From contig CAJNDT010000507.1 in assembly GCA_905221615.1 (NCBI GenBank), positions 1 through 64,000 of the forward strand: a stretch of 64,000 nucleotides of DNA, written 5' to 3'. Shown piece by piece: positions 6,338 to 39,180 of this stretch. The notes beneath the pieces are model-generated. The model was not told the origin of the DNA and searched no databases. It worked only from the letters and a program-made list of their open reading frames with translations. The first letter of the stretch is position 1. The number at the start of each line of letters is the position of its first letter. Source of the DNA: Symbiodinium sp. CCMP2592. Lineage: Eukaryota > Sar > Dinophyceae > Suessiales > Symbiodiniaceae. The position numbers were made by a program, and so were the translations under genes.

Positions 6338-6342
6338 CAGGG
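6338..6342. repeat. Target-site duplication CAGGG (left copy)
   Basis: The five bases CAGGG directly precede the first LTR and recur directly after the second LTR (16278-16282). A 5-bp duplication is normal for copia-type integrases. It fixes both ends of the element. Confidence 0.93.
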
Positions 6343-6509
6343 TGAGAACTTAGCCGTGTAGCTAGGAGCCTGGATCTACAGCAACTCCTAGTGCAGGTAG
6401 CTCAAAGCTCTTTTGCGCACGCGCTCCCTTCCCTGCTGAGCCTCCGAGAGCGCCGATTCGTGAGTCTTCATGGCATGTAAACACGGCTGACGACTTTATT
6501 CGTTTAGCA
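6343..6509 (-). repeat. 3' LTR (167 bp)
   Basis: On the element strand it starts TGCTAAACG and ends GTTCTCA. It matches 16111-16277 at every base I compared. An AATAAA hexamer lies a few bases inside its start (plus-strand TTTATT at 6495-6500) and could act as a polyadenylation signal; that role is inference, as dinoflagellate poly(A) signals are poorly defined. No TATA box is evident. At 167 bp the LTR is short for a copia element. Confidence 0.95.
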
Positions 6510-6537
6510 CCGGTACTATTTTCTTATGCCTGAAGAC
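6510..6537 (-). promoter_or_regulatory. Short 3' untranslated segment / candidate polypurine tract
   Basis: Only 28 bases separate the stop codon from the 3' LTR. A canonical purine tract ending at the LTR is missing. The best purine run is AAGAAAA (plus-strand 6519-6525), set off from the LTR by TAGTACCGG. The ten bases TGAAGACTCA at 6531-6540, which overlap the stop codon, are the exact inverse complement of TGAGTCTTCA inside the LTR (6461-6470), so the transcript could fold across this junction. Confidence 0.4.
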
Positions 6538-9500
6538 TCATCGCCACGCTGCATTAGCGCTGGTCCCCAGCAGATCAGCTGGTGTTTTGCTGTCTTTGAG
6601 CTTGACCACTGGGTTTGACATCCATTCTCTGAAGGAGTCACGAAGAGCCCGTGAGCGCTTGGTGAGCGCGTCTGCTAGCTGTTGTTCCGACGGGACCCAT
6701 CTAAGGCCTTTACAGGTCTGTCGAAGCGCTGCTACGTCTAGCTCTACCCGCTTCTCTTGAAACGAGGTGGTGAGCCTGTGAACTGAGTCCCAAAGCGACC
6801 TAGCATCAGTCACGGGGATAACCTCGAAGAGCGGCCGGTCGTTGAGGGTGGAGATGAAGGTGGCATCGCACATCTCGCTGAAGGTCATCGCGAGAAAATG
6901 CGCATGGTCGTGTGTACGATCCAGCGCCGCTGCTTCTGCCGCCAAAGTACTCCTCAAAACTCGCTGGTGACGGTAGCTCTTCCACTCAAGCAGCGAGGCG
7001 GAGGTCTCCTGGTTTTTGGCCACTCTGTCCGTCGCCACAATGACCAAGCCGCCCTGAGACTTGTTCCCCGGGGCGTTCGCGAATCCAGAATCACCGTAGG
7101 CAACGAAGATCAACTGGTCCACATCGATCGGGGTTATCTTGATGCAGGCGGATGCAGTAGCTCGGACGTACCTCAAGACTGCGTTCACCTCTTTCAGGTC
7201 TGCCACCGTGAGTTGTGTAGGAGGTTTCTGCAGTAGGCTCACATCACTGGCGATGTCGCCTCTCGAGGTTGATGCCAGCCATTGAAGCGACCCGATGCCC
7301 GAACGGAACTCTGTCACCAGCTCCGGGTGCTGGCTGAGTAACTCAGCATCGTCCAACTTCACACGTGTGGCGGGGACTTCCTCGACGTACGAAGCCTGAT
7401 CAACCGTTATGGATCCATCCGGCCATTGCTTGATGTGCCGGCCGACAAAGGTGAAGTCGCCACTGGTCCACGGTGATCCCCAGGTGAACTTGGACTCGAC
7501 GCGGTTTAGCACCTCCTCGTAGCCGGGCAAGGCGCAGCTCAGCAGGTCGTCCACGTGGAGGCCCAGAAGCGCCACGACCTTATTGTCGTGCCGGTACAGA
7601 AACAAGCAGGGGTCCAAACTGTGGGATTCCCAGCTGAGTTCACGAAGCACCCTGGAAAAGTGATTGTACCACTGTCTCGGTGCATTGGACTGCCCATAGA
7701 CCGGTGCCGACAGCTTGTACAACAACGTTTTCACACGCCACTCTGGTACTGCTTGAAGCGCAAGTGGGTCACCCGGTGGCTTCATGAAGATCGGCTCAGG
7801 GCGTTCGGAGTCAGGGTCTCCTTGGAGGAAGGCCGACTTCGCATCTGCATTCCATAACTTGACCCGAAAGGTCGCCGCCCATTGCAAAAGCAAGTGCAGT
7901 GATGCACGAGCCAAGACCGGGGCATCGCGAGTCAGGAGCGGTAAGTGGGGGTCGCGAAATCCGGCGACTACCACTCTCGCCTTTGCCTTGAAACCAGATG
8001 CTGCCGGCTTCCAGCGATAACAGACTCTGGATCGAAGAACCAGATGAGGGGCGATGGCGCCTTCCTTCACATGCACCGGTGAGCAGCTGGCCCACTTCTG
8101 CCACTCTGACCATTCTTTGCGGAGCGCCTCGACAAACGGCTCAATCTCGTCCTCGGTCATGGATTGCCAATGCACCTCTTTCTTCCTCGCCTGTTGAGCG
8201 GCTCGCCTGGCACCAAAGCCAGAACTTCCGTCGCAGCCCTCTTCGTCGGACGAGGACTCCATGGCAATCACTTTCTCCGCTTCTTGGCCAGCTGAGGACT
8301 GCTCTTTCACTGGGAAGACCTCCCAGAGAGGGCGGATTTCTTTGGGCAGGTCTGGAGTGAAGTCTGCGGTTGTGGCCGTGGTGAAGGTCACGTGCTTGCC
8401 GCCTTGTTTGAATCCCAGCTTGCGCATCTTCTTGAGCGAGTCCTCCGAAGCTAAGTCAGCCAGTCTGGTCTGGTAAGCCGTGATGACGAAGCGCTCGCCC
8501 ACATACTCCTCCGTGCCGTGGTAGTTGTCCGGGTCGAACTGGACGAGCTTCTGGTAGTTGTCGTGGAACTTGCCGTAGACCTTCTTGCCCTTCACGGAGC
8601 GCCGGACAATTTCCCCGGAGTTCGCCGAGTCATATTCAGCCTCGACCCACAGATGCCCTCCCACATGGTTCCCCAAGGCTATGCTCCAGTTCGCAGCGCC
8701 CTTGGAGTTGTGGACGTCCTTGTGGTAGCGGCTCCGGATGTTTCGCCCAATGAACACACTGCTGGTCTTGCCTTGGAGGCCGTGGTGCTTCAGGTAGGCG
8801 TTCACGTACTTCAGCAGGGCGCGGTTGTTGTCGGTAGCCTTGGTGAAGCCATGTTGCCGGCCATGACTGAAGTAACCCAAGGTCAAGGAACCAGCATTGC
8901 CAGAGCTCGCCGACAAGCACTGTCGATCTACCGGCTTGTAAGTGGCCGTCTGCAGTAGCTGATGGCATGAGTCATGAGAGAAGTCCTCCCTCTTCAGCAG
9001 CAATGCGGCCAATGACTCGGACAGCGGGGGCGGTTTGGAGGTTGTCGGATAATTGGACGTAGTAGTTTCGCTAGCAATGCTCGTTGTATGTGGCTCAGCA
9101 TGGGGAGCAAAGACACCTTCCTCCTGGTCGGCGTTGCCGAACACATAGGCAGCCGTAAGGAAGGCTTCGTGAACATAGATGCCCGGGACCTCGTCTGGCG
9201 ATCCATCCCAGCCTTGGCGAAGATGTTGGCCACGGGCATGTCGTCGTAGCACGTCAAGTCGATGAAGTGTACTCGGAACCTTGACGGCCGTCGTGGTAGT
9301 AGTAGACAGTGATGCATGAGGTTGCAAAGCTTGTGGTGCGTAAGGTTGCAAAGCTTGTGGTGCATCAAGTTGCGAAGCTTGTAGTACATGAGGTTGTAAG
9401 GCTTGTGGTACATGAGGTTGTGAGGCTTGTGGTACATGAGGTTGTAAGGCTTGTGGTGCATGTAGTTGCGAAGCTTGTAGTACATGAGGTTCGGAGGCTG

Positions 9501-12500
9501 GCAACGCAGCTCGGCTCGCAGCAGCAGCAACGTGAGACTGGTAGTCATCGATCACATCCTGGACTTGAGGATCTTTGAGCGAAGGGGCCGGTTCTACATG
9601 ATCACGGGTAACACCCAGCAGCTTATCGAAGGCCTCTCTCTCCTTGACCTCATCTAGCCAAGAGACCACGTCACGTACATCTGTCACAGCGTGCTGACTG
9701 TTGCATCGACCGCATCGGCCAGGAAAATTGCGGTACTGTTCACCGCATCCTTGACAATAAAGGAGAAATGAAGACTCCGGCTCAGCAGAAAGAGGCGTAG
9801 GACCCGTTGAGGAATTGGGTGCTGAAGATAATTTGCGAACACCTTCAGAATCAGCAGCCAATTCGCCAACAGCAACACTAGGGCTCCTCTTCAAACCACG
9901 ACCCCCTGGAGATTCGGTCTCAACGATCTTGGACATTGGCTCTACGCCTGAGACTTGACGAGACACCCCCCTGGTAGAAGCGCTAGATGTTCTGCGGCTC
10001 ATGCCTGGAGGACCAGAAGGTGCACGGTTGGAAGACGGATCCTGTCCGGGTAAGTTTGTCAAATCTGAACCTGAAACAGCACGCTGAAAGTCTCCCTCAT
10101 CCTCACGAGGAGGTAAACCAGAAGGTGCAAGGTTGGAAGACGTTGGATCCTGTTCGGGTACACCGCCACCATCGCGTTCGGCTCCTTGACGTGGGACAGA
10201 CCTCGATCTCGCGCGTGTCCTCGGAGTTCCTGGTGCGGAACGGGGCGTAGGCGGTATCAACATAAGTGGACTGAACATAGGCGACTCCAGCACAGGGCGA
10301 CCAGCAGGATCCAAAGTCAGCGGAGTAGGTCGCGGCGCCTGTTCGGTATCATCCTCGGGCACAACAGGAGTGCCGGCCTGCGGCTGCAAAGGCTCGTCCT
10401 GCGAGGGCTCAGACAGTTGCGGAGGCAGTTGTGCATCGATAGCCTCAGCGATTTGACGGTCATCCGCGGGACCTGGATGGTCAGAATGCCGAAAAGCCCT
10501 CGGATGCAACTGCACATCCTTGTCAAACTTTCTAAGAACCTCCAGGTCCGCAGGGTCGGGCGACCACCATTCCTCACCGAAGACAGGCCTACACTGCTCG
10601 GGTGAGGCCTGCACGAGGCGTCCTCGACTGTTGCGAATCCACAGATTGGCTGCAACATTGGAATTGGGGTTGCGATCCAGCGACACCACAATTCCCTGAC
10701 GGTAACCCTCGACGGTGCCTTCTCCATCACCAGCAGCAGTTCGCTTGCGGAAGTAAGCAATCTTTTGCCCGGGGTAGAACTCACCACGATAGGGTCGGCT
10801 CTTCCGCAACAATGCCGACCGCAGCGCCTGGTTGGCCTCGAACTCGTGGTGGTTGTTCATGGCCTGCACGCGAATGCTCTCGATCTGCATGAGACGTTCC
10901 GAGTCGCTGGTGAGCTGTGCACTCTCAATACTCCCGCCATCACTGAGCAAGGCTCCAGGAAGTTTAGGGTCCTTGCCGAACACCCACTGATTGGGGCTGG
11001 ATCCACTCCTTCTCATAAGGCGGTTCTTTGCTTGCACTGCCGAGGCTACACATACGTTGACCTCGGCCACAGTGAGCGCAGCAAACTGATTGATCAAACG
11101 ACTGGCATTGTATCGCAGCGCCTGGCCATGGCGTTCGGCTTTTCCAAGTTGCCAGTGTGAGTCCGGAGGGATGCACCGAACATCCACATTCAGCTGCGCA
11201 TGCAGCGACTCGAACCGCATGCCGCGAAAGGCTCCTTCCGCATCGATGGTCAACTCATCAGGTGGCCCAAAGAAACAGAACCAACCATTCACCAAGTTCG
11301 ACACCACATTCTCCTCTGATCTCGACAACAATCTTGATGCTGCTTGATAGCACGTCGCATCGTCCACACAGTTGAGGAACATATGGGTGCCTCCTCGGAT
11401 GTCCTTGAGGTAGATGATATCCATGGACATCCTGTCATTGAACCTCCGAGCCTGGAAGGCCTTTGACACTCGTGGTTGATGTGGTGGGCTGACACGAAGG
11501 CACACCTCGCATCGCAAATGACGGGCCCCTTTGAGAGCAGCTTCTGAAGCCTTGGCGATTGCCAAATGTCGGACCAGAGTTTCCTTAGGTGGATGCCCGA
11601 GGTTGCAATGCAGGCGACGAAGTACCTGCTGCATCCAGCTGGGGATATCGACTCCGGGGAACGTGATGTCGCGGTAGCCCGGCTGGTGGACATGCATTTT
11701 CTCATGAGGCTCTCCCTCGCGGGGCTCAGGCCGATTCTTCGGTTGCTCAGGCAACTCGTTCTCTTGGTCGTTCATACTTGTAGCCGGAGCGTCACCGTAG
11801 AAGAAGATGGCGATCCGGACTGGCTTAGTGAACTTCCCGGTCGGAGCTTGGATGATCGAGCTGATCTTCTCGGCCTCAAAGACGATGGTGTCGTCGTTGT
11901 GCATAAGGGCGGCTCCCCGGTGCTGAGTGCCTTCTTGAGATACCTCAGCAGGCAATCGGCGCTGTTTGGGCGCACGGAAGATCTGCACCCTTTGCAATTT
12001 CCAGGGCACCAAGGCTTTCACACGCTCGAGGTAGGGTGAAGGCTTCAAGGTAACCCCATTGGTCGCGAGGTTCTTGAGCCTCTGTTCAGCCTCTTGCAAA
12101 AGAGGCTTCCACGATTCCTCTTGACGGCTGATGTCCAAGAAGAACACACTGGAGGTCTGAGGTTCACCGGGTGGTTCCCACAGCAGATCAAAGTTCTCCC
12201 AGGGATCATCATGATGAACGTCGCATACCCAGGCCTCGTCGTCACCCGGCAGACCCGAGAAAACTTGCCAGTTTTGGTTCCATCGTTCATCTCCTCGTTG
12301 ATGAAGAACATCTTGGAGAGCCTTGATCAACTGGATCTCCTCCTTCAACGGTTGAGCCTCAACTTGGTTCGCGAAGATCGTGGCAAGGAGCTCCGGGAGA
12401 TTCGTCATGTACGTCACGCCGTCCCGGTTCTGTAGTCGAACTCCTGGAGCGGCCTGTAGTTGACGAAGCTCAAGTCCGGACAGAAAGACCTCGTCCTCGC

Positions 12501-15500
12501 AGGCTCGTAGTAGAAAGTGAACACCATCGCTGAGCAGCTCGTGCAGTAGAAGACAAACCTGACGGATTCGTCCTTCCTCAGATTTCGAGCGAGGCCTTGC
12601 ATTCACCCTCCAAACCACGAGGAACGGTCTATGCCGGCCGACAAGCTTCTTCAAGGTCCGAGGGTTCACAGAAACTGGGCTAGCACTCGTGACTTGCACA
12701 GGCTCAAGCACACGCAGACCGACTTCCAGGGCCTTCTCAGACAAGTCCTCACTCACACAGTCGATCTCGATCAAGTCAGCTCGGTACTCACGAAGCTTCC
12801 TAGCTGACTGGACGCGGTTTGCATAGACCTGTGCCTCGGTCTCCCAAGCTTGCAGCACCAGTTTGGCTGAACCACTCAACCGCTTTCTCACTCCCGCCTT
12901 CAGCACAAAGCAACCAAAATCCTCGCAGCATAGAGGAGCATCGGCGGATCCTTGAGGATGTACGGGTAGCACAGGAGGATCGCCTGCTCGCTCTTGGGCT
13001 AGAAGTAGCCCCGCTCCTCGAACTGACGTCTCATCTCGGACGGCATCTCGTCTCGAGCGTCCACATCCCAATCGTCGCGACCCATCCTTTCCTCCCAGAG
13101 GTTCACGTCGTTGGCCTGACTCATGAGGATCTCGTCGACCTCCTGTGCCGTGAGCCCGCCCGGGCCTTCCTCCTCGTTGGGGTTCTCCTCCTCGCGGCGT
13201 TGGAACAGGCGAGGTTGCCGGCTCTGTCGACCTTGGCCGGTTGTCTCGACGCTCATGTCGGTGTCCGAGCTTGCCGCCGATCGTCCCGAGTGCCATTGAC
13301 GAGGTGGCATTCTCTGCCCATTCATACGGAAGAGGCTCGGACTCTGAGTCTGAGGACCCCAGCTCGGTCTCGGAGGAGGCGGCGGCGTCAGTCCCAAGTG
13401 TCCAGCTTTGGCCTGTGATGGCTCCCGCGAGGATGCCGACAAGCGCTGCCACGACCCGTCCGAAGCGCCGCCTTTGTCCTCGCTCTGGTCCTTGGGTTTT
13501 CCTTTGGCCTTTGCGAGCTTCTTTTTCTGGGCATCGGTCAATCCCAGAGGTGTCTTCGCGCTTGGATTGGCCTTGGGCACGGCCTCCAGCGCTTCCCCAC
13601 TCAGCGTGAGAACCCAACGGCTCCCGCAGGAGTCGCAAATGCGAATCCTTTGGCCTCCGGCGGCATATGTCCGAGTGCCCGTGCCAGAGGTGTGGTCGCA
13701 CTTCGCCGGGCTCTTGCGGTAATGGTTCAGCTGCAAAGCACTGGAAGCCGCCATCGCCGCTTGAGTCCCCATCATTGTCACTGCCGAACAGGGCTCCATG
13801 TACATCTTTAACACCATATCCTTCAACTTCGGGCGAAGCGTAGCCGCCGAGTAGTACAGCACCGCCATCTGGGTCGTGTAAATGAACTCCTGAAGATGCA
13901 CCAGCAACATCCTCCAGTTCGTCAACCATCTCGGATGAGGATCTCGAGGCATGTGGAGGTCGGGCTGCTACTTTCGAATTGCTGATGGCTTGAAGCCTCA
14001 CTCTGCTGGGCGGAAAAGCTTTGTCGTGCAGCACATCGGGGGGTCCCTGTCCACTGAACTGCATGGTGGAGTACTTGCCGGGCCAGTCGAAAGCATGGTT
14101 GGGCCACTCATCAATCTTAATCGCAAGATGCCCGCAAGGACTCAAAAACAGGTCTGTTGACTTGCCAAAGGCCTTGAAGTAGACAGTACCCTCCAAAAGA
14201 TCCGGAACAGCCCCAAGCGCCTCCATGGTCCGCCTGGAGAGTAGTCCCGGCGCCGGAGCTTCGACCTCGCTGATTCCAAGCATCACCGCTTCCCCAGCAA
14301 TCCCAGCAGGGTAGAGAAACCGTCCCTTGCTCGGCATGCCACTGGTGGGACCAAAAGAAAATCGACAAACTTCTTCAAAGCGGAGTGGCACAAGAGGCAG
14401 AATCTCGCTACACTTCTGCTGATGCCAAACACTCCCCGCGACCTGACGTTGACACCCAGTATCAGCTATCATGTAAGAGGCGTCTTCGCAAGTGCTCAAC
14501 ATTATCGACGGGGGTCTCGGCACTCTGAACACTCTCACGTTTTGCTCCGTAGGGGCAGGCTGCGAGCTCACCATCCAGCTCGTTTGGAGCACCTTCAGCG
14601 TCCAGTTCCAAGTCTGCCGGGTCACATGCGGGCAATCCCTGATCCAGTGGTCACTTGCCCCGCATCCAAGGCACAAGGATCCTTTCAGCCTGTTCTGGCG
14701 ATCAGCTCCGGCGGCTCCACCAGCACCTCCAGGCTTGCCCTTCTTGCCGCTCGCCTTGCCCTTGGGATGACCCTTTCCGGACGGCGATCCCTTTCCTTTG
14801 GACTTGCCGCCCTTCTTGCCGCCCGACTTGCCCGGCGACTTGCCTTTGCCTTTGCCCTGAACATAAAATCCCCGACTTTGCACCAAACCGGCAAGCTTCT
14901 TGGACGTGACCGTCAGTGCCTCAGCCGCCGCCAGGAGCGCGGACATATCCTCAGGCACCTCCTCGGTCGGCTGCGAGTCGCCGGCCTCCTCGCGGATCAA
15001 CTCTTCATCGTCATCCTCGTTGCCCTCTTCTTCGTGATTGGGCTCGTACTCGAAATCCTCGCCCTGGTTCTCCTCTTCGGGCTCGTAGTCCCCGCCTTGG
15101 TCCACGGTCTCATCCTCGCCGTCCCACTCAGTGTGCCACTGAGTCCACCGTCCGCTGGACTGCGATCTCGGGTTCCGGCGATTCCCGTGAGTGGCAGAAG
15201 ACTTGTATGTAGATACCCGGGAGGTAGAGGATCTCGTAGTGGTAGAGCGCGAAGATAACGATGACAAACCCTTGGGGAGACCCGTTATGCTCATGCCAGG
15301 AGGATACTGTATGCGGAGGGCCTCAAGCACGCTCTTCATTTCGTAGCGGTTGCCAGCTGCCAAAAGTATCGAAGCAGTGGCCTTCTCGTCCAAGCGTAAC
15401 CCGTCCAACAACTTAATCACCCTGGCCTGCTCGGGGTACTCCGGGACCTTGTTCTCGGACAACTTTCTCTCGAGGAGCCTGAAACGGCGAATAAACGCCG

Positions 15501-16056
15501 TGATGGACTCCCCCTGCATTCTCCCAATCGACTCAAACTCCCTGATGACACCCCCTTGTCTGAAAATTTCCCTCTCGCCGAAGGCCTTCTCCAAGTCTCC
15601 CAACAGTCGGGAGACTCCGTCAGGATGATCGAACCGATCATCGGAAACCTCCTCAAACTCAAGCTCTGCCTCGCCCGTAAGCTTCTCCAAGGCGCGAAGA
15701 GCCTGCTCGTTCGGCGGGAGGAACTCCTTGGTGATCTTGACCCATCGAAGAAGCCGTCGGCGGTAATGCCTCAAGCAGTAGGGATCTCTCTCCACGTCGC
15801 CATCAAACTCCGGGGCTTGCGGAACTGCTCCTGAGCGCCACTTATGTTCAGTGGCCGAAGAGCCTGTGCCACCGCATACCCCACGCTTTCGTCGTCGTCC
15901 ACTGCCCTGACTGGGCACGTCGTCGGCCGCGCCGGCGCCTGTCAAGGCGCTGTCGTCTTGGCCAGCGCTCTCGGCGCTTCCGCGCTCGAAGGTGTCGTCG
16001 TACTCGGCCTCGTGACCAAAGTCGAAAAGATCATCATCGAACATCGGAGCTGCCAT
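6538..16056 (-). CDS. Giant copia-type gag-pol polyprotein (3172 aa)
   Basis: Encodes all functions for copying the element: capsid, protease, integrase, reverse transcriptase and RNase H, in one frame. The ATG at 16054-16056 is chosen because an in-frame TAG lies four codons upstream. Order by residue: gag core 80-255; acidic tract 310-370; Gly/Lys/Ser basic tract 400-450; CCHC knuckle 462-475; protease with D-T-G at 532-534; middle section 690-1460; integrase zinc finger 1483-1519 and D1546/D1605/E1641 core; Pro/Ser linker to about 2095; zinc ribbon 2101-2118; octapeptide repeats 2189-2248; 2OG-Fe(II) oxygenase-like module about 2385-2535; reverse transcriptase 2630-2890 with D2738 and D2836/D2837; RNase H with D2989, E3041, D3084, D3129. 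All core catalytic residues are present. The part between about 760 and 1030 may not be in the ancestral frame. Cleavage sites cannot be placed. Confidence 0.93.
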   Translation of the reverse strand: MAAPMFDDDLFDFGHEAEYDDTFERGSAESAGQDDSALTGAGAADDVPSQGSGRRRKRGVCGGTGSSATEHKWRSGAVPQAPEFDGDVERDPYCLRHYRRRLLRWVKITKEFLPPNEQALRALEKLTGEAELEFEEVSDDRFDHPDGVSRLLGDLEKAFGEREIFRQGGVIREFESIGRMQGESITAFIRRFRLLERKLSENKVPEYPEQARVIKLLDGLRLDEKATASILLAAGNRYEMKSVLEALRIQYPPGMSITGLPKGLSSLSSRSTTTRSSTSRVSTYKSSATHGNRRNPRSQSSGRWTQWHTEWDGEDETVDQGGDYEPEEENQGEDFEYEPNHEEEGNEDDDEELIREEAGDSQPTEEVPEDMSALLAAAEALTVTSKKLAGLVQSRGFYVQGKGKGKSPGKSGGKKGGKSKGKGSPSGKGHPKGKASGKKGKPGGAGGAAGADRQNRLKGSLCLGCGASDHWIRDCPHVTRQTWNWTLKVLQTSWMVSSQPAPTEQNVRVFRVPRPPSIMLSTCEDASYMIADTGCQRQVAGSVWHQQKCSEILPLVPLRFEEVCRFSFGPTSGMPSKGRFLYPAGIAGEAVMLGISEVEAPAPGLLSRRTMEALGAVPDLLEGTVYFKAFGKSTDLFLSPCGHLAIKIDEWPNHAFDWPGKYSTMQFSGQGPPDVLHDKAFPPSRVRLQAISNSKVAARPPHASRSSSEMVDELEDVAGASSGVHLHDPDGGAVLLGGYASPEVEGYGVKDVHGALFGSDNDGDSSGDGGFQCFAAEPLPQEPGEVRPHLWHGHSDICRRRPKDSHLRLLREPLGSHAEWGSAGGRAQGQSKREDTSGIDRCPEKEARKGQRKTQGPERGQRRRFGRVVAALVGILAGAITGQSWTLGTDAAASSETELGSSDSESEPLPYEWAENATSSMALGTIGGKLGHRHERRDNRPRSTEPATSPVPTPRGGEPQRGGRPGRAHGTGGRRDPHESGQRREPLGGKDGSRRLGCGRSRRDAVRDETSVRGAGLLLAQERAGDPPVLPVHPQGSADAPLCCEDFGCFVLKAGVRKRLSGSAKLVLQAWETEAQVYANRVQSARKLREYRADLIEIDCVSEDLSEKALEVGLRVLEPVQVTSASPVSVNPRTLKKLVGRHRPFLVVWRVNARPRSKSEEGRIRQVCLLLHELLSDGVHFLLRACEDEVFLSGLELRQLQAAPGVRLQNRDGVTYMTNLPELLATIFANQVEAQPLKEEIQLIKALQDVLHQRGDERWNQNWQVFSGLPGDDEAWVCDVHHDDPWENFDLLWEPPGEPQTSSVFFLDISRQEESWKPLLQEAEQRLKNLATNGVTLKPSPYLERVKALVPWKLQRVQIFRAPKQRRLPAEVSQEGTQHRGAALMHNDDTIVFEAEKISSIIQAPTGKFTKPVRIAIFFYGDAPATSMNDQENELPEQPKNRPEPREGEPHEKMHVHQPGYRDITFPGVDIPSWMQQVLRRLHCNLGHPPKETLVRHLAIAKASEAALKGARHLRCEVCLRVSPPHQPRVSKAFQARRFNDRMSMDIIYLKDIRGGTHMFLNCVDDATCYQAASRLLSRSEENVVSNLVNGWFCFFGPPDELTIDAEGAFRGMRFESLHAQLNVDVRCIPPDSHWQLGKAERHGQALRYNASRLINQFAALTVAEVNVCVASAVQAKNRLMRRSGSSPNQWVFGKDPKLPGALLSDGGSIESAQLTSDSERLMQIESIRVQAMNNHHEFEANQALRSALLRKSRPYRGEFYPGQKIAYFRKRTAAGDGEGTVEGYRQGIVVSLDRNPNSNVAANLWIRNSRGRLVQASPEQCRPVFGEEWWSPDPADLEVLRKFDKDVQLHPRAFRHSDHPGPADDRQIAEAIDAQLPPQLSEPSQDEPLQPQAGTPVVPEDDTEQAPRPTPLTLDPAGRPVLESPMFSPLMLIPPTPRSAPGTPRTRARSRSVPRQGAERDGGGVPEQDPTSSNLAPSGLPPREDEGDFQRAVSGSDLTNLPGQDPSSNRAPSGPPGMSRRTSSASTRGVSRQVSGVEPMSKIVETESPGGRGLKRSPSVAVGELAADSEGVRKLSSAPNSSTGPTPLSAEPESSFLLYCQGCGEQYRNFPGRCGRCNSQHAVTDVRDVVSWLDEVKEREAFDKLLGVTRDHVEPAPSLKDPQVQDVIDDYQSHVAAAASRAALPASEPHVLQASQLHAPQALQPHVPQASQPHVPQALQPHVLQASQLDAPQALQPYAPQALQPHASLSTTTTTAVKVPSTLHRLDVLRRHARGQHLRQGWDGSPDEVPGIYVHEAFLTAAYVFGNADQEEGVFAPHAEPHTTSIASETTTSNYPTTSKPPPLSESLAALLLKREDFSHDSCHQLLQTATYKPVDRQCLSASSGNAGSLTLGYFSHGRQHGFTKATDNNRALLKYVNAYLKHHGLQGKTSSVFIGRNIRSRYHKDVHNSKGAANWSIALGNHVGGHLWVEAEYDSANSGEIVRRSVKGKKVYGKFHDNYQKLVQFDPDNYHGTEEYVGERFVITAYQTRLADLASEDSLKKMRKLGFKQGGKHVTFTTATTADFTPDLPKEIRPLWEVFPVKEQSSAGQEAEKVIAMESSSDEEGCDGSSGFGARRAAQQARKKEVHWQSMTEDEIEPFVEALRKEWSEWQKWASCSPVHVKEGAIAPHLVLRSRVCYRWKPAASGFKAKARVVVAGFRDPHLPLLTRDAPVLARASLHLLLQWAATFRVKLWNADAKSAFLQGDPDSERPEPIFMKPPGDPLALQAVPEWRVKTLLYKLSAPVYGQSNAPRQWYNHFSRVLRELSWESHSLDPCLFLYRHDNKVVALLGLHVDDLLSCALPGYEEVLNRVESKFTWGSPWTSGDFTFVGRHIKQWPDGSITVDQASYVEEVPATRVKLDDAELLSQHPELVTEFRSGIGSLQWLASTSRGDIASDVSLLQKPPTQLTVADLKEVNAVLRYVRATASACIKITPIDVDQLIFVAYGDSGFANAPGNKSQGGLVIVATDRVAKNQETSASLLEWKSYRHQRVLRSTLAAEAAALDRTHDHAHFLAMTFSEMCDATFISTLNDRPLFEVIPVTDARSLWDSVHRLTTSFQEKRVELDVAALRQTCKGLRWVPSEQQLADALTKRSRALRDSFREWMSNPVVKLKDSKTPADLLGTSANAAWR
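6652..7119 (-). other. RNase H domain of the polyprotein
   Basis: Residues about 2980-3135. Acidic residues expected in copia RNase H are present: D2989 in A-Y-G-D-S, E3041 in L-A-A-E-A, D3084 in V-T-D-A-R-S and D3129 in L-A-D-A-L-T-K. The domain degrades RNA in the RNA-DNA hybrid during reverse transcription. It ends about 40 residues before the stop. Confidence 0.9.
7387..8169 (-). other. Reverse transcriptase domain (copia type)
   Basis: Residues about 2630-2890. Conserved blocks in order: V-V-A-G-F (2696-2700), W-N-A-D-A-K-S-A-F-L-Q-G with catalytic D2738, the Y-G-Q-S/P-R-Q-W segment near 2787-2796, and L-H-V-D-D with D2836 and D2837 (codons 7546-7554). Most copia enzymes read Y-V-D-D; here histidine replaces tyrosine. 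No frameshift or stop interrupts the domain. Confidence 0.93.
8452..8904 (-). other. Embedded 2-oxoglutarate/Fe(II) oxygenase-like module
   Basis: Residues about 2385-2535. Visible pattern: H2445-x-D2447 (iron ligands), an A-L-G-x6-G-x-L-W-V-E strand (G2467), then F-D-x4-H2513 (third ligand) and G-E-R2522-F-V-I-T-A-Y, with the arginine nine residues after the distal histidine. That HxD...H...R arrangement with flanking beta-strand sequence is the signature of the double-stranded beta-helix 2OG-Fe(II) dioxygenases (the prolyl hydroxylase/AlkB/TET-JBP superfamily). Standard copia polyproteins lack it. Its substrate cannot be told from sequence; nucleic acid or protein hydroxylation or demethylation are open options. 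I believe similar modules occur in other dinoflagellate retroelement proteins, but this is recollection. All proposed catalytic residues are intact. Confidence 0.72.
9313..9492 (-). repeat. 24-bp tandem repeat encoding octapeptides
   Basis: About seven copies of a 24-bp unit encode an eight-residue repeat of the form Q-P-H-V-P-Q-A-L with alternation of A-L and A-S endings (residues 2189-2248). The unit length keeps the frame. The segment sits between the zinc ribbon and the oxygenase-like module and probably acts as a flexible spacer. Copy number is likely to vary between element copies. Confidence 0.85.
9703..9756 (-). other. CxxC...CxxC zinc ribbon in the polyprotein
   Basis: C2101-x2-C2104 and C2115-x2-C2118 with a ten-residue loop between the pairs form a compact zinc-ribbon-like motif. 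It follows a long Pro/Ser/Arg-rich linker (about 1850-2095). Its function is unknown; nucleic-acid or protein binding is possible. Not part of canonical copia architecture. Confidence 0.6.
10957..11610 (-). other. Integrase: HHCC zinc finger and DDE core
   Basis: Residues 1483-1700. The N-terminal finger is H1483-x4-H1488...C1516-x2-C1519. The rve-type core has D1546 (S-M-D-I-I-Y), D1605 (L-T-I-D-A-E-G) and E1641 (L-G-K-A-E-R-H), with exactly 35 residues between the last two, the classical DD35E spacing. The 5-bp target duplication fits this enzyme. A C-terminal region with Y-P-G-Q-K-I-A-Y follows at 1761-1768. Confidence 0.93.
12367..12789 (-). other. Rossmann-like, possibly degenerate cytosine methyltransferase-like region
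   Basis: Residues about 1090-1230. The series L-I-E-I-D-C...G-L-R-V-L-E-P (1095-1118), R-P-F-L-V-V-W-R-V (1143-1151), V-H-F-L-L-R-A-C-E-D (1179-1188) and T-N-L-P-E-L-L (1218-1224) resembles, in order and spacing, motifs I, IV and VI of C5-cytosine methyltransferases as found in some dinoflagellate retroelement polyproteins. The catalytic Pro-Cys of motif IV is absent and the motif I glycines are lost, so any such domain is probably not catalytic. Low confidence; no strict signature survives. Confidence 0.35.
12999..13952 (-). CDS. Overlapping +1-frame open reading frame (317 aa), protein-like
   Basis: This frame is shifted +1 relative to the polyprotein and is open for 317 codons. Its content looks like real protein: C85-x-H87...C106-x2-C109 (a zinc-binding-like pair at 13626-13700, preceded by H-Y-R-K-S-P-A-K), a Lys-rich helix with D-A-Q-K-K-K-L-A-K, a Pro/Gln-rich stretch, and an acidic end with E-V-D-E-I-L and W-E-E-R-M-G-R-D-D-W. 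The first 50 or so residues look less natural, so the true switch from the main frame may lie near 13750-13800. It ends at a TAG (12999-13001). I think this is the ancestral pol frame, displaced by compensating indels or reached by frameshifting, rather than a separate gene. Confidence 0.45.
   Translation of the reverse strand: MPRDPHPRWLTNWRMLLVHLQEFIYTTQMAVLYYSAATLRPKLKDMVLKMYMEPCSAVTMMGTQAAMAASSALQLNHYRKSPAKCDHTSGTGTRTYAAGGQRIRICDSCGSRWVLTLSGEALEAVPKANPSAKTPLGLTDAQKKKLAKAKGKPKDQSEDKGGASDGSWQRLSASSREPSQAKAGHLGLTPPPPPRPSWGPQTQSPSLFRMNGQRMPPRQWHSGRSAASSDTDMSVETTGQGRQSRQPRLFQRREEENPNEEEGPGGLTAQEVDEILMSQANDVNLWEERMGRDDWDVDARDEMPSEMRRQFEERGYF
13402..13464 (-). other. Hydrophobic segment in the main frame
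   Basis: Residues 865-885 (F-G-R-V-V-A-A-L-V-G-I-L-A-G-A-I-T-G...) form a possible membrane-spanning helix after an Arg/Lys-rich tract and before an acidic Ser-rich tract. Because the alternative frame is also open here, the segment may simply be out-of-frame translation. Confidence 0.3.
14137..14514 (-). other. Retropepsin-type aspartic protease
   Basis: Residues about 515-640. The catalytic D-T-G is at 532-534 (codons 14455-14463), preceded by Y-M-I-A and followed by C-Q-R-Q-V-A-G. The second half, P-G-L-L-S-R-R-T-M-E-A-L-G-A near 603-616 followed by G-T-V-Y-F, matches the C-terminal strands of retropepsins. It would cleave the polyprotein. Confidence 0.85.
14632..14673 (-). other. CCHC zinc knuckle (nucleocapsid)
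   Basis: C462-x2-C465-x4-H470-x4-C475 is a perfect gag-type zinc knuckle that would bind the element's RNA. It directly follows the basic tract and precedes the protease, as in other copia gag proteins. Confidence 0.93.
14683..14859 (-). other. Gly/Lys/Ser-rich basic tract of gag
   Basis: Residues 400-458 are almost entirely G, K, S and P in G-K-G-K and G-K-K-G-K units, probably an RNA-binding tail next to the zinc knuckle. The upstream acidic block (310-370) is rich in E and D. Basic tracts of this style are common in dinoflagellate gag proteins, in my recollection. Confidence 0.8.
15292..15819 (-). other. Gag capsid-like core
   Basis: Residues about 80-255. Helical, charged sequence beginning F-D-G-D with W-V-K-I-T-K and L-T-G-E-A, then F-E-S-I-G-R-M-Q-G-E-S-I-T-A-F-I-R-R-F near 174-192, which resembles the retrotransposon gag/UBN2-type capsid fold. 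It would form the virus-like particle. Confidence 0.7.
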
Positions 16057-16110
16057 CAGGAAACACTACCGTAGCTTAGCTAGGAGTACTGCAACCTGCG
16101 TCGCTACCAG
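16057..16110 (-). promoter_or_regulatory. 5' leader with primer-binding site
   Basis: The leader is only 54 bases. On the element strand, one base after the 5' LTR, it reads TGGTAGCGACGCAGGTT (plus-strand 16093-16109). TGG pairs with the CCA end of a tRNA; the next bases imply a tRNA with discriminator A and an acceptor strand beginning A-G-C. The A1-U72 pair this implies is typical of eukaryotic initiator tRNA-Met, the usual copia primer. Assignment to that tRNA is inference. Confidence 0.65.
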
Positions 16111-16277
16111 TGAGAACTTAGCCGTGTAGCTAGGAGCCTGGATCTACAGCAACTCCTAGTGCAGGTAGCTCAAAGCTCTTTTGCGCACGCGCTCCCTTCC
16201 CTGCTGAGCCTCCGAGAGCGCCGATTCGTGAGTCTTCATGGCATGTAAACACGGCTGACGACTTTATTCGTTTAGCA
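16111..16277 (-). repeat. 5' LTR (167 bp)
   Basis: No difference from 6343-6509 was seen in a base-by-base reading. It should hold the promoter for the element's RNA. The AATAAA hexamer is at plus-strand 16263-16268. Confidence 0.95.
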
Positions 16278-16282
16278 CAGGG
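16278..16282. repeat. Target-site duplication CAGGG (right copy)
   Basis: Matches 6338-6342 exactly, so the pre-insertion site read ...TTTAGGTG-CAGGG-CGCCTGTCG... Confidence 0.93.
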
Positions 16283-36799: not shown

Positions 36800-37420
36800 A
36801 AGCTCGCGCAAGTCCATGGAACAAGACCGAAGCACGCGCAAGGATCAGGCCTGCCCTGCCGAGCAATGTGGAGGATCGCCCGTCTGGCTGAGAATCCAAA
36901 TGCCCCCAGCAAGCGCTTTGGCGCATCGCCTTGCTGTCATTTGCCAGGCGCTGGCATGTTGGCCTCAAGGGCACCACGGACACCCACAAAGAACCTGGCG
37001 GATGTCGTGCCACTTGGGAAACCGACCCAAGCATTCCGTGCCTGATACCAGGCCAGATACAGCACAAACATCCGTGGACCGGATTCAAGGGTTCCTTCTG
37101 TTCCACAAAGCTAGCCCCACACCCGGCCGGCGGTGTGTTCAACTGCTGGCACTGTTGCCGAGACAACAGCGACGCCTCAGCAGCTCAATGGGTAAGGCGC
37201 AACAATTTCCAACACCAGCGCAGCAAAGCACAGCACTCGTGCCACGACAAAACTGTGCCATGACTGATTGTTTACCACTTGAGGTCCCAGAGGATCCACA
37301 AGCCTAGACTGGATCCCATCCGTGCAAAACATCCAAGTTGGAACCTCATCTCGCACTTCTACTAGACACTGCTACGCTAGGACAAACAGCGCTTTCTAAG
37401 ACGGCAGAGTGGCCAGCAGG
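36800..37420. repeat. Tandem array copy 1 (621 bp, most diverged)
   Basis: Starts AAGCTCGCGCAAG. The core (about 36840-37265) is nearly identical to the other copies but lacks a 28-bp piece present in copies 2-4 (CGCATCC...GCACAG). The linker after the core (37266-37420) is strongly diverged from the linkers of copies 2 and 3. Several frames are open across the core on both strands, so coding status is unclear. Confidence 0.9.
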
Positions 37421-38057
37421 AAGCTCGCACAAGTCCATGGAACAAGACCGACGCACGCCCAAGGATCAGCGCATCCGGGCGGGCATGTGCTGCACAGGCC
37501 TGCCCTGCCAAGCAATGTGGAGGATCGCCCGTCTGGCTGAGAATCCAGATGCCCCCAGCAAGCGCTTTGGCGCATCGCCTTGCTGTCATTTGCCAGGCGC
37601 TGGCATGTTGGCCTCAAGGGCACCACGGACACCCACAAAGAACCTGGCGGATGTCGTGCCACTTGGGAAACCGACCCAAGCATTCTGTGCCTGATACCAG
37701 GCCAGATACAGCACAAACATCCGTGGACCGGATTCAAGGGTTCCTTCTGTTCCACAAAGCTAGCCCCACACCCGGCCGGCGGTGTGTTCAACTGCTGGCA
37801 CTGTTGCAGAGACAACAGCGACGCCTCAGCAGCTCAATGGGTAAGGCGCAACAATTTCCAACACCAGCGCAGCAAAGCACAGCACTCGTGCCACGAGAAA
37901 ACTGTGCCATGACTGTTTTCAATGCCGTGAAGTTCCGGAGGACACACAAGCCGACCCATCCGTGCCAAACATCCATGCTGAAACTTCATCTAGCTTTTCT
38001 ACTAAAAACTACGTCAAAATAAGCAGGTCTTTCCAAGACGGCAGATTGGCCAGCATG
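37421..38057. repeat. Tandem array copy 2 (637 bp)
   Basis: Same unit as copies 3 and 4; it lacks a 14-bp duplication of AACAAAACAGAAGC present in copies 3 and 4. The core differs from copy 3 at only a few bases. Confidence 0.93.
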
Positions 38058-38708
38058 AAGCTCGCACAAGTTGATGGAACAAAACAGAAGCAACAAAACA
38101 GAAGCACGCCCAAGGATCAGCGCATCCAGGCGGGCATGTGCTGCACAGGCCTGCCCTGCCAAGCAATGTGGAGGATCGCCCGTCTGGCTGAGAATCCAGA
38201 TGCCCCCAGCAAGCGCTTTGGCGCATCGCCTTGCTGTCATTTGCCAGGCGCTGGCATGTTGGCCTCAAGGGCACCACGGACACCCGCAAAGAACCTGGCG
38301 GATGTCGTGCCACTTGGGAAACCGACCCAAGCATTCTGTGCCTGATACCAGGCCAGATACAGCACAAACATCCGTGGACCGGATTCAAGGGTTCCTTCTG
38401 TTCCACAAAGCTAGCCCCACACCCGGCCGGCGGTGTGTTCAACTGCTGGCACTGTTGCCGAGACAACAGCGACGCCTCAGCAGCTCAATGGGTAAGGCGC
38501 AACAATTTCCAACACCAGCGCAGCAAAGCACAGCACTCGTGCCACGAGAAAACTGTGCCATGACTGTTTTCAATGCCGTGAAGTTCCGGAGGACACACAA
38601 GCCGACCCATCCGTGCCAAACATCCATGCTGAAACTTCATCTAGCTTTTCTACTAAAAACTACGTCAAAACAAGCAGGTCTTTCCAAGACGGCAGATTGG
38701 CCAGCATG
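38058..38708. repeat. Tandem array copy 3 (651 bp)
   Basis: The spacing to copy 4 is exactly 651 bp, a multiple of three. One plus-strand frame is open through almost the whole unit (38071-38709, about 212 codons), interrupted by a single TGA per unit at the junction. I do not recognise the encoded sequence; it has no known motif. Confidence 0.93.
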
Positions 38709-39180
38709 AAGCTCGCACAAGTTGATGGAACAAAACAGAAGCAACAAAACAGAAGCACGCCCAAGGATCAGCGCATCCAGGCGGGCATGTGCTGCACAGG
38801 CCTGCCCTGCCAAGCAATGTGGAGGATCGCCCGTCTGGCTGAGAATCCAGATGCCCCCAGCAAGCGCTTTGGCGCATCGCCTTGCTGTCATTTGCCAGGC
38901 GCTGGCATGTTGGCCTCAAGGGCACCACGGACACCCGCAAAGAACCTGGCGGATGTCGTGCCACTTGGGAAACCGACCCAAGCATTCTGTGCCTGATACC
39001 AGGCCAGATACAGCACAAACATCCGTGGACCGGATTCAAGGGTTCCTTCTGTTCCACAAAGCTAGCCCCACACCCGGCCGGCGGTGTGTTCAACTGCTGG
39101 CACTGTTGCAGAGACAACAGCGACGCCTCAGCAGCTCAATGGGTAAGGCGCAACAATTCCCAACACCAGCGCAGCAAAGC
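38709..39180. repeat. Tandem array copy 4 (truncated, 472 bp)
   Basis: Follows copy 3 base for base with few changes until GCGCAGCAAAGC at 39180, then switches abruptly to unrelated sequence. This marks the right end of the array. Confidence 0.93.

Follow-up and report, generated by a model that had tools for sequence, protein, structure and literature searches.

A predicted 2OG-Fe(II) oxygenase domain in copia-type retrotransposon polyproteins of Symbiodinium

The window analysed here is a stretch of 64,000 nucleotides (nt) from Symbiodinium sp. CCMP2592 (assembly GCA_905221615.1, contig CAJNDT010000507.1, positions 1 to 64,000), and it contains a Ty1/copia retrotransposon, identified by its long terminal repeats (LTRs), a gag zinc knuckle and an integrase (IN) located upstream of an RVT_2-type reverse transcriptase (RT). 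The polyprotein of this element carries, in frame between the IN core (Pfam rve) and RVT_2, a segment which is predicted to be a real, catalytic-type 2-oxoglutarate (2OG) and Fe(II)-dependent dioxygenase domain, with the TET/JBP group being the nearest to it in sequence. As judged by similarity, the domain is not special to the element of the window, and several copia families carry relatives of it. Retrotransposons of this lineage probably gained it early in their history, and it has been kept in these families; a homologue is present in what looks like a DIRS-like element. An oxygenase-like domain between IN and RT, at 8452..8904, had been proposed in a sequence-only reading of the same DNA. 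The flanking Pfam matches bear out its placement and its residue positions (H2445, D2447, GGHLWVE from 2466, H2513 and R2522) are exact in the translated open reading frame (ORF), but the conserved span is slightly wider, at 8377-8934 (Table 1).

Relatives of the window domain were collected from the 1.098-Gb assembly of Symbiodinium sp. CCMP2592, and the best 150 of 4074 candidates were scored. All 150 had E < 1e-21 and none contained a stop inside the match (0/150); 135 of them fall within open frames that are 1000 amino acids (aa) or longer, as counted from the table of matches. Seventy loci were read, of which 34 were left after removal of those more than 85% identical, and the frame-broken locus L005 was then dropped. 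The resulting alignment (A1) has 33 members: besides the window domain it contains 32 relatives that are encoded in this genome and are 27-47% identical. The mean column identity is 33%. As these loci were found by their similarity to the window domain among the best-scoring candidates, badly decayed copies are under-sampled.

Despite this divergence, the HxD...H triad and downstream R of the 2OG-Fe(II) superfamily are found in order in 33/33 members of A1 and in 12/12 members of a second alignment (A5, described below), and the distance between the histidine and arginine equivalent to H2513 and R2522 is nine residues in every aligned sequence of both. The sequence-only reading had accepted that free variation at the H, D, H and R positions would speak against it; such variation was not seen, and all four are kept in 33/33 members of A1. 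The segment has 13 histidines, 11 aspartates and 12 arginines, and on these numbers the chance that the H, H, D and R, which were named before any alignment was made, would all fall among the invariant residues is roughly estimated at 2e-4.

The residue five positions after the HxD histidine is also constant. In TET2, the first histidine of the HRDLHN motif is H1382, which places Asn1387 five residues after it. The equivalent position here, N2450 in the window, is N in all members of A1 (33/33) and A5 (12/12), and so has the offset of an amide or acid which contacts N4 of 5-methylcytosine (5mC) in hTet2 (Asn1387), NgTet1 (Asp234) and CMD1 (Asp350); such a residue is not universal among TET enzymes, as CcTet has Gly (PMC11040006).

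The domain is under purifying selection, as far as codon comparisons can indicate. The ratio of nonsynonymous to synonymous change (dN/dS), a check that the sequence-only reading had called for, is low, with a median pairwise NG86 value of 0.069 over 112 non-independent pairs that have dS < 1.5 and at least 8 changes. Between the window and locus L002 it is 0.18 over the matched stretch. Across 17 elements the oxygenase and RT distances are correlated (Mantel r 0.86, p 2e-4), and mean identity is 35% for the oxygenase and 32% for the RT, suggesting that the origin of the domain dates back roughly to the divergence of these copia families and that it has for the most part been passed on along with them, with its position differing between lineages. 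In the window lineage the oxygenase is less conserved than the RT (69 vs 90% identity to deposited protein P0004; 46 vs 68% to P0007). The domain is thus as intact as its neighbours, as had been claimed, with respect to its open frame but not with respect to its rate of change.

Protein searches returned seven deposited sequences (P0001-P0007), the named sources being Symbiodinium CCMP2592, S. necroappetens and Symbiodinium sp. KB8. The CCMP2592 protein P0001 is 100% identical to the window over residues 2375-2560. HxD, H and R are kept in all five of P0003-P0007, which have domain identities of 48-70%. P0003 has a 3-residue gap just after HxD that includes N2450, and the HxD stretch is missing from P0002, where it is probably spliced out by the gene model. 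Introns have apparently been cut from the element frames in the deposited gene models P0001 and P0002 (window 6541-16056), and P0006, deposited as luxQ, joins copia pol to histidine-kinase domains and is possibly a gene-model fusion. No stand-alone homologue of ~102-325 aa was found by word search, no relatives of the domain were found in viral contigs, and no relative of the domain of locus L033 was found in phage records.

A more distant homologue was found at locus L075. In the pol ORF of this element the oxygenase comes first, followed by a methyltransferase-like region and a segment that weakly matches RVT_1 (E 0.012). Another ORF has a weak Phage_int_SAM_1 match (E 0.22), a further ORF is basic and zinc-finger-like, and a direct repeat of 297 nt is also present. 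Directly after the oxygenase, L075:3513-4490 contains FSGTA, PPCGT and ENP motifs and is C5-methyltransferase-like by eye only. Loci L071-L074 (L071 being part of L075) have the oxygenase and methyltransferase-like region in the same order. When the genome was searched with the L075 domain, the best 150 of 5021 candidates all had E < 1e-24, with a stop inside 3/150. Alignment A5 (n=12) combines L075 with 11 short pieces from this group; a twelfth, L085, was omitted as a near copy of L084. H, D, N, W, H and R are kept in 12/12. Profile comparison by hhalign shows A1 and A5 to be homologous (probability 99.9%, E 3e-37), and the window and L075 domains align directly with an E of 1.6e-8.

Copia RT or IN was detected beside the domain in 18/33 rows of A1; the rows outside this count are L007 and 14 rows of ~700 bases from the L051-L070 set. 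Segments of the window element were used in tblastn against the 20 larger loci (L031-L050), and IN was detected in 13 of these (L031, L034, L038, L039, L041-L047, L049 and L050). The oxygenase lies upstream of IN in 13/13 of them, unlike in the window, where it lies between IN and RT. Where all parts were seen (L041, L043, L044 and L046) the order is gag, protease, oxygenase, IN and RT (GAG-PRO-OXY-IN-RT). At L003, L004 and L006, RT is close downstream of the oxygenase, as in the window. Seven of the 20 gave no IN by tblastn; of these L032, L033 and L037 have RVT_2 downstream, and L035, L036 and L040 match the RT of L037 at 97-98%. L033 and L037 belong to the same family, and in L037 the domain is in a single frame with RVT_2. 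The seventh, L048 (1164-1766; 3507-3986), has a copia-type RT upstream of its oxygenase and so shows an order opposite to that at the other loci tested, which may reflect a neighbouring or rearranged element. CCCH zinc fingers are encoded within the oxygenase ORF at L012, L032 and L037. Open frames measure 4053 aa at L012 and 4848 aa at several loci related to it.

Matches to curated profiles indicate which oxygenases the domain most resembles. The Tet_JBP model (PF12851) was matched by 5/33 members of A1 (best E 2.7e-4, all below the cut-off) and by 6/12 members of A5 (best E 6.1e-7). When this model was run against the whole 1.1-Gb genome, with 150 of 155 candidates scored, four matches were found at E<=0.001 (29.2-29.6 bits), and all four represent this domain in a divergent form. 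In a sequence search of the PDB with the L075 domain, TET2 was the best match, with three entries at E 0.28-0.29 at the HRDxHN motif, which is not significant alone; a tRNA endonuclease was also listed at E 1.2. In addition, the domain piece of L033 scored 27.2 bits against PF13640 (E 7.7e-6) over profile positions 5-97 of 98, marginally above the cut-off of 27.0 and the only match to exceed a curated cut-off, and from these family matches a double-stranded beta-helix fold would be expected. Together with the invariant residues and the low dN/dS, the PF13640 and Tet_JBP matches of the relatives support the original proposal that a copia polyprotein contains a 2OG-Fe(II) oxygenase-like domain.

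Several observations weigh against this assignment or against a TET/JBP affinity. The window copy alone matched no oxygenase family in Pfam, and no oxygenase model was matched at E<=1 by 26/33 members of A1, the window copy included, or by 6/12 of A5. The PF12851 cut-off of 34.9 bits was reached by no Tet_JBP match, the best having 29.6 bits, and the domain is therefore not filed as a TET/JBP member. The whole frame of L033 scored 23.5 bits against PF13640, which is under the cut-off, and L064, alone among A1 members, matched the aspartyl/asparaginyl hydroxylase family PF05118 (E 6.5e-4). PHROG 6059, an implausible weak family, was matched by 6/33 members of A1 (best E 0.014), so that the recurrence of weak matches among relatives is not independent evidence. 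The genome profile search reads frames and misses intron-split host genes, and a host TET/JBP gene may therefore exist. PHD2, a prolyl hydroxylase, shares the N at +5 and likewise has its R nine residues after the H. The methyltransferase-like region of L075 gave no convincing match in Pfam, NCBIfam or the PDB, for which reason it was rejected as a proven methyltransferase domain.

Ten Pfam families were listed at E<=1 for A1, and the seven besides Tet_JBP, PF13640 and PF05118 were taken as chance, as were the histidine kinase matches of A1 (E 4.4) and A5 (E 0.24) in the PDB. Neither the window segment nor L033 matched anything in the PDB by sequence, and the oxygenase pieces tried against NCBIfam gave no match. 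AlphaFold2 was run twice on alignments of seven sequences each, the window with P0002-P0007 (A2) and the window with P0001 and P0003-P0007 (A4), and gave pLDDT values of 36 and 35.

The explanation we favour, with moderate confidence, is that the domain is a pyrimidine-methyl dioxygenase with a predicted activity on 5mC or thymine in the DNA of the element. A prolyl-4-hydroxylase or PHD-like protein hydroxylase, which would modify Gag, a host chromatin protein or a host restriction factor, appears rather unlikely. It draws on the L033 piece, which is just above the PF13640 cut-off, on L037, which matches the same family at E 4.1e-4, on the PF05118 match of L064 and on the H-to-R spacing shared with PHD2. 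PF13640 and PF05118 are however each matched by only 1/33 members of A1 and 0/12 of A5, as compared with 5 and 6 for Tet_JBP, and no consistent, family-wide match to PF13640 was seen. The 27 genome matches to PF13640 at E<=0.001 coincide with none of the best 150 places listed for the window-domain or L075-domain search, and in L075 the domain adjoins a methyltransferase-like region.

An AlkB-type nucleic-acid demethylase, acting on N6-methyladenosine (m6A), 1-methyladenosine (m1A) or 3-methylcytosine (3mC), is very unlikely, and membership of the AlkB family was rejected: PF13532 was matched at E<=1 by none of the 33 A1 and 12 A5 members, the 13 genome matches to it (E<=0.001) likewise lie outside the best 150 places listed for either domain search, and the H-to-R spacing of AlkB is longer than the nine residues found here. 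Its HxD...H...R pattern and the functional precedent in the LTR elements of orchids, which are of the gypsy type (PMC9289625), speak for it. Equally improbable is a non-enzymatic domain, such as a linker, capsid or binding module, in which HxD...H...R is a structural relic. The activity is only predicted, and in the window lineage the oxygenase evolves faster than RT, with a dN/dS between the window and L002 of 0.29 (10 changes) vs 0.02, both from small counts, but relics normally lose such residues, whereas here the putative iron and 2OG ligands are fixed despite the 33% mean column identity and dN/dS is low. That the motif arose by chance, within an artefact of annotation or assembly, could be suspected from the apparent introns which cut the ORF in the deposited gene models. 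This is refuted, and its probability is negligible, since the domain is stop-free in 150/150 scored genome matches (best 150 of 4074), occurs in proteins deposited for S. necroappetens and Symbiodinium sp. KB8, and has its named residues invariant in A1.

If the domain does act as a pyrimidine-methyl dioxygenase, it would be co-packaged with RT and IN because it is made as part of Gag-Pol. Its invariant residues and family matches suggest that Fe(II) would be held by H2445, D2447 and H2513, and 2OG by R2522. The methyl group of a pyrimidine, either 5mC or thymine, could then be hydroxylated in the element cDNA or in the integrated copy, and as a result new copies could resemble host DNA rich in 5-hydroxymethyluracil (5-hmU, hmU), or methylation-based silencing could be undone. 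The erasing or silencing-escape function of the sequence-only reading is likewise putative. In Symbiodinium microadriaticum 5-hmU replaces ~12% of T, a share that can be as high as 68% in other dinoflagellates; most repeats of Breviolum minutum are enriched in it, and its function is not known (PMC11071213). As host DNA carries abundant 5-hmU and most B. minutum repeats are enriched in it, the boldest reading is that the domains are thymine hydroxylases, and that element copies or a descended host gene contribute to dinoflagellate 5-hmU. We consider this improbable. If true, the base would serve the elements as a self label on their cDNA, and its unusual presence in dinoflagellates would partly be a mobile-element product.

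The features of the window element are listed in Table 1. No target-site duplication was recognised at the LTR flanks. Just upstream of the oxygenase in the ORF, window 9285-9547 (-) contains overlapping 24-nt tandem repeats in eight registers, which encode an octapeptide array. Elsewhere in the window, ~650-nt units with 93-98% identity form a tandem array at 36800-39180, and a long, strongly skewed simple-repeat tract, which is CA/TG-rich, is located at 52710-53912.

Table 1. Positions of the predicted oxygenase domain, its conserved residues and other parts of the carrier element in the window.
Feature	Position	Strand	Details
2OG-Fe(II) oxygenase-like (OXY) domain	8377..8934	-	polyprotein residues ~2375-2560; homology to 32 divergent relatives, P0002-P0007 and the L075 domain
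H2445, putative iron ligand 1	8722..8724	-	A1 33/33, A5 12/12; 52/53 distinct rows (exception frame-broken L005)
D2447, putative iron ligand 2	8716..8718	-	A1 33/33, A5 12/12; 52/53 distinct rows (exception L005)
N2450, +5 from H2445	8707..8709	-	A1 33/33, A5 12/12; 53/53 distinct rows
W2470 of GGxLW motif	8647..8649	-	invariant, A1 33/33, A5 12/12
H2513, putative iron ligand 3	8518..8520	-	A1 33/33, A5 12/12; 53/53 distinct rows
R2522, putative 2-oxoglutarate carboxylate ligand	8491..8493	-	A1 33/33, A5 12/12; 53/53 distinct rows
R2531, nine after R2522	8464..8466	-	invariant in A1 33/33; varies in A5, R in 4/12
copia-type polyprotein ORF	6538..16056	-	3172 codons, without internal stop
reverse transcriptase RVT_2	7375..8001	-	residues 2686-2894; Pfam E 6.1e-15, above cut-off
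integrase core rve	11161..11445	-	residues 1538-1632; Pfam E 1.4e-5, below cut-off
gag zinc knuckle	14629..14673	-	residues 462-476; weak Pfam match, E 0.0093, below cut-off
3' LTR, 172 nt	6342..6513	-	1 mismatch in 172 vs 5' LTR
5' LTR, 172 nt	16110..16281	-	pairs with 3' LTR

The finding holds and is broader than first noted. Mobile elements carrying base- or protein-modifying oxygenases are already known, and the present case adds a further form of them. Among the top-ranked open-licence literature, no title or abstract opening reported the domain in dinoflagellate retrotransposons. Nucleic-acid modifying enzymes have nonetheless been described in such elements: DNA methyltransferases (DNMTs) are carried by DIRS and long interspersed nuclear elements (LINEs) of Symbiodinium, where copia elements are without a DNMT (de Mendoza 2018, PMC5890265), and L075 is similar to the DIRS type among these. 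The main text of that paper contains none of the strings oxygenase, hydroxylase, hydroxymethyl or JBP. Like hTet2, NgTet1 and CMD1, the domain has HxD followed by an amide or acid at +5, and its putative 2OG-binding arginine is a further feature shared with TET enzymes (PMC11040006); it differs from TET2, NgTet1 and CcTet in being below the Pfam cut-off.

The AlkB (2-oxoglutarate-dependent dioxygenase, 2-ODD) gene of Phalaenopsis Ty3/gypsy elements is a parallel case, in which an LTR retrotransposon carries a 2OG-Fe(II) oxygenase. It is an additional ORF of the PF13532 family, found in two orchid species and with m6A demethylase activity, whereas the domain described here is within the polyprotein, is without an AlkB model match and occurs in several element families (PMC9289625). 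Another parallel is the TET/JBP oxygenase of fungal DNA transposons, which, as here, has been captured repeatedly by mobile elements and for which an anti-silencing role is proposed (Kojima 2025, PMC12730594). The carriers in the present case are dinoflagellate copia polyproteins and a DIRS-like one, with a domain below the Tet_JBP cut-off. Elements with their own DNA-modifying enzymes bear on the evasion of silencing, and the domain provides a well-defined family of candidate enzymes for expression and assay. The 2025 fungal survey (PMC12730594) found no TET/JBP in retrotransposons and noted this explicitly; an oxygenase of TET/JBP-like type in such elements would close the gap.

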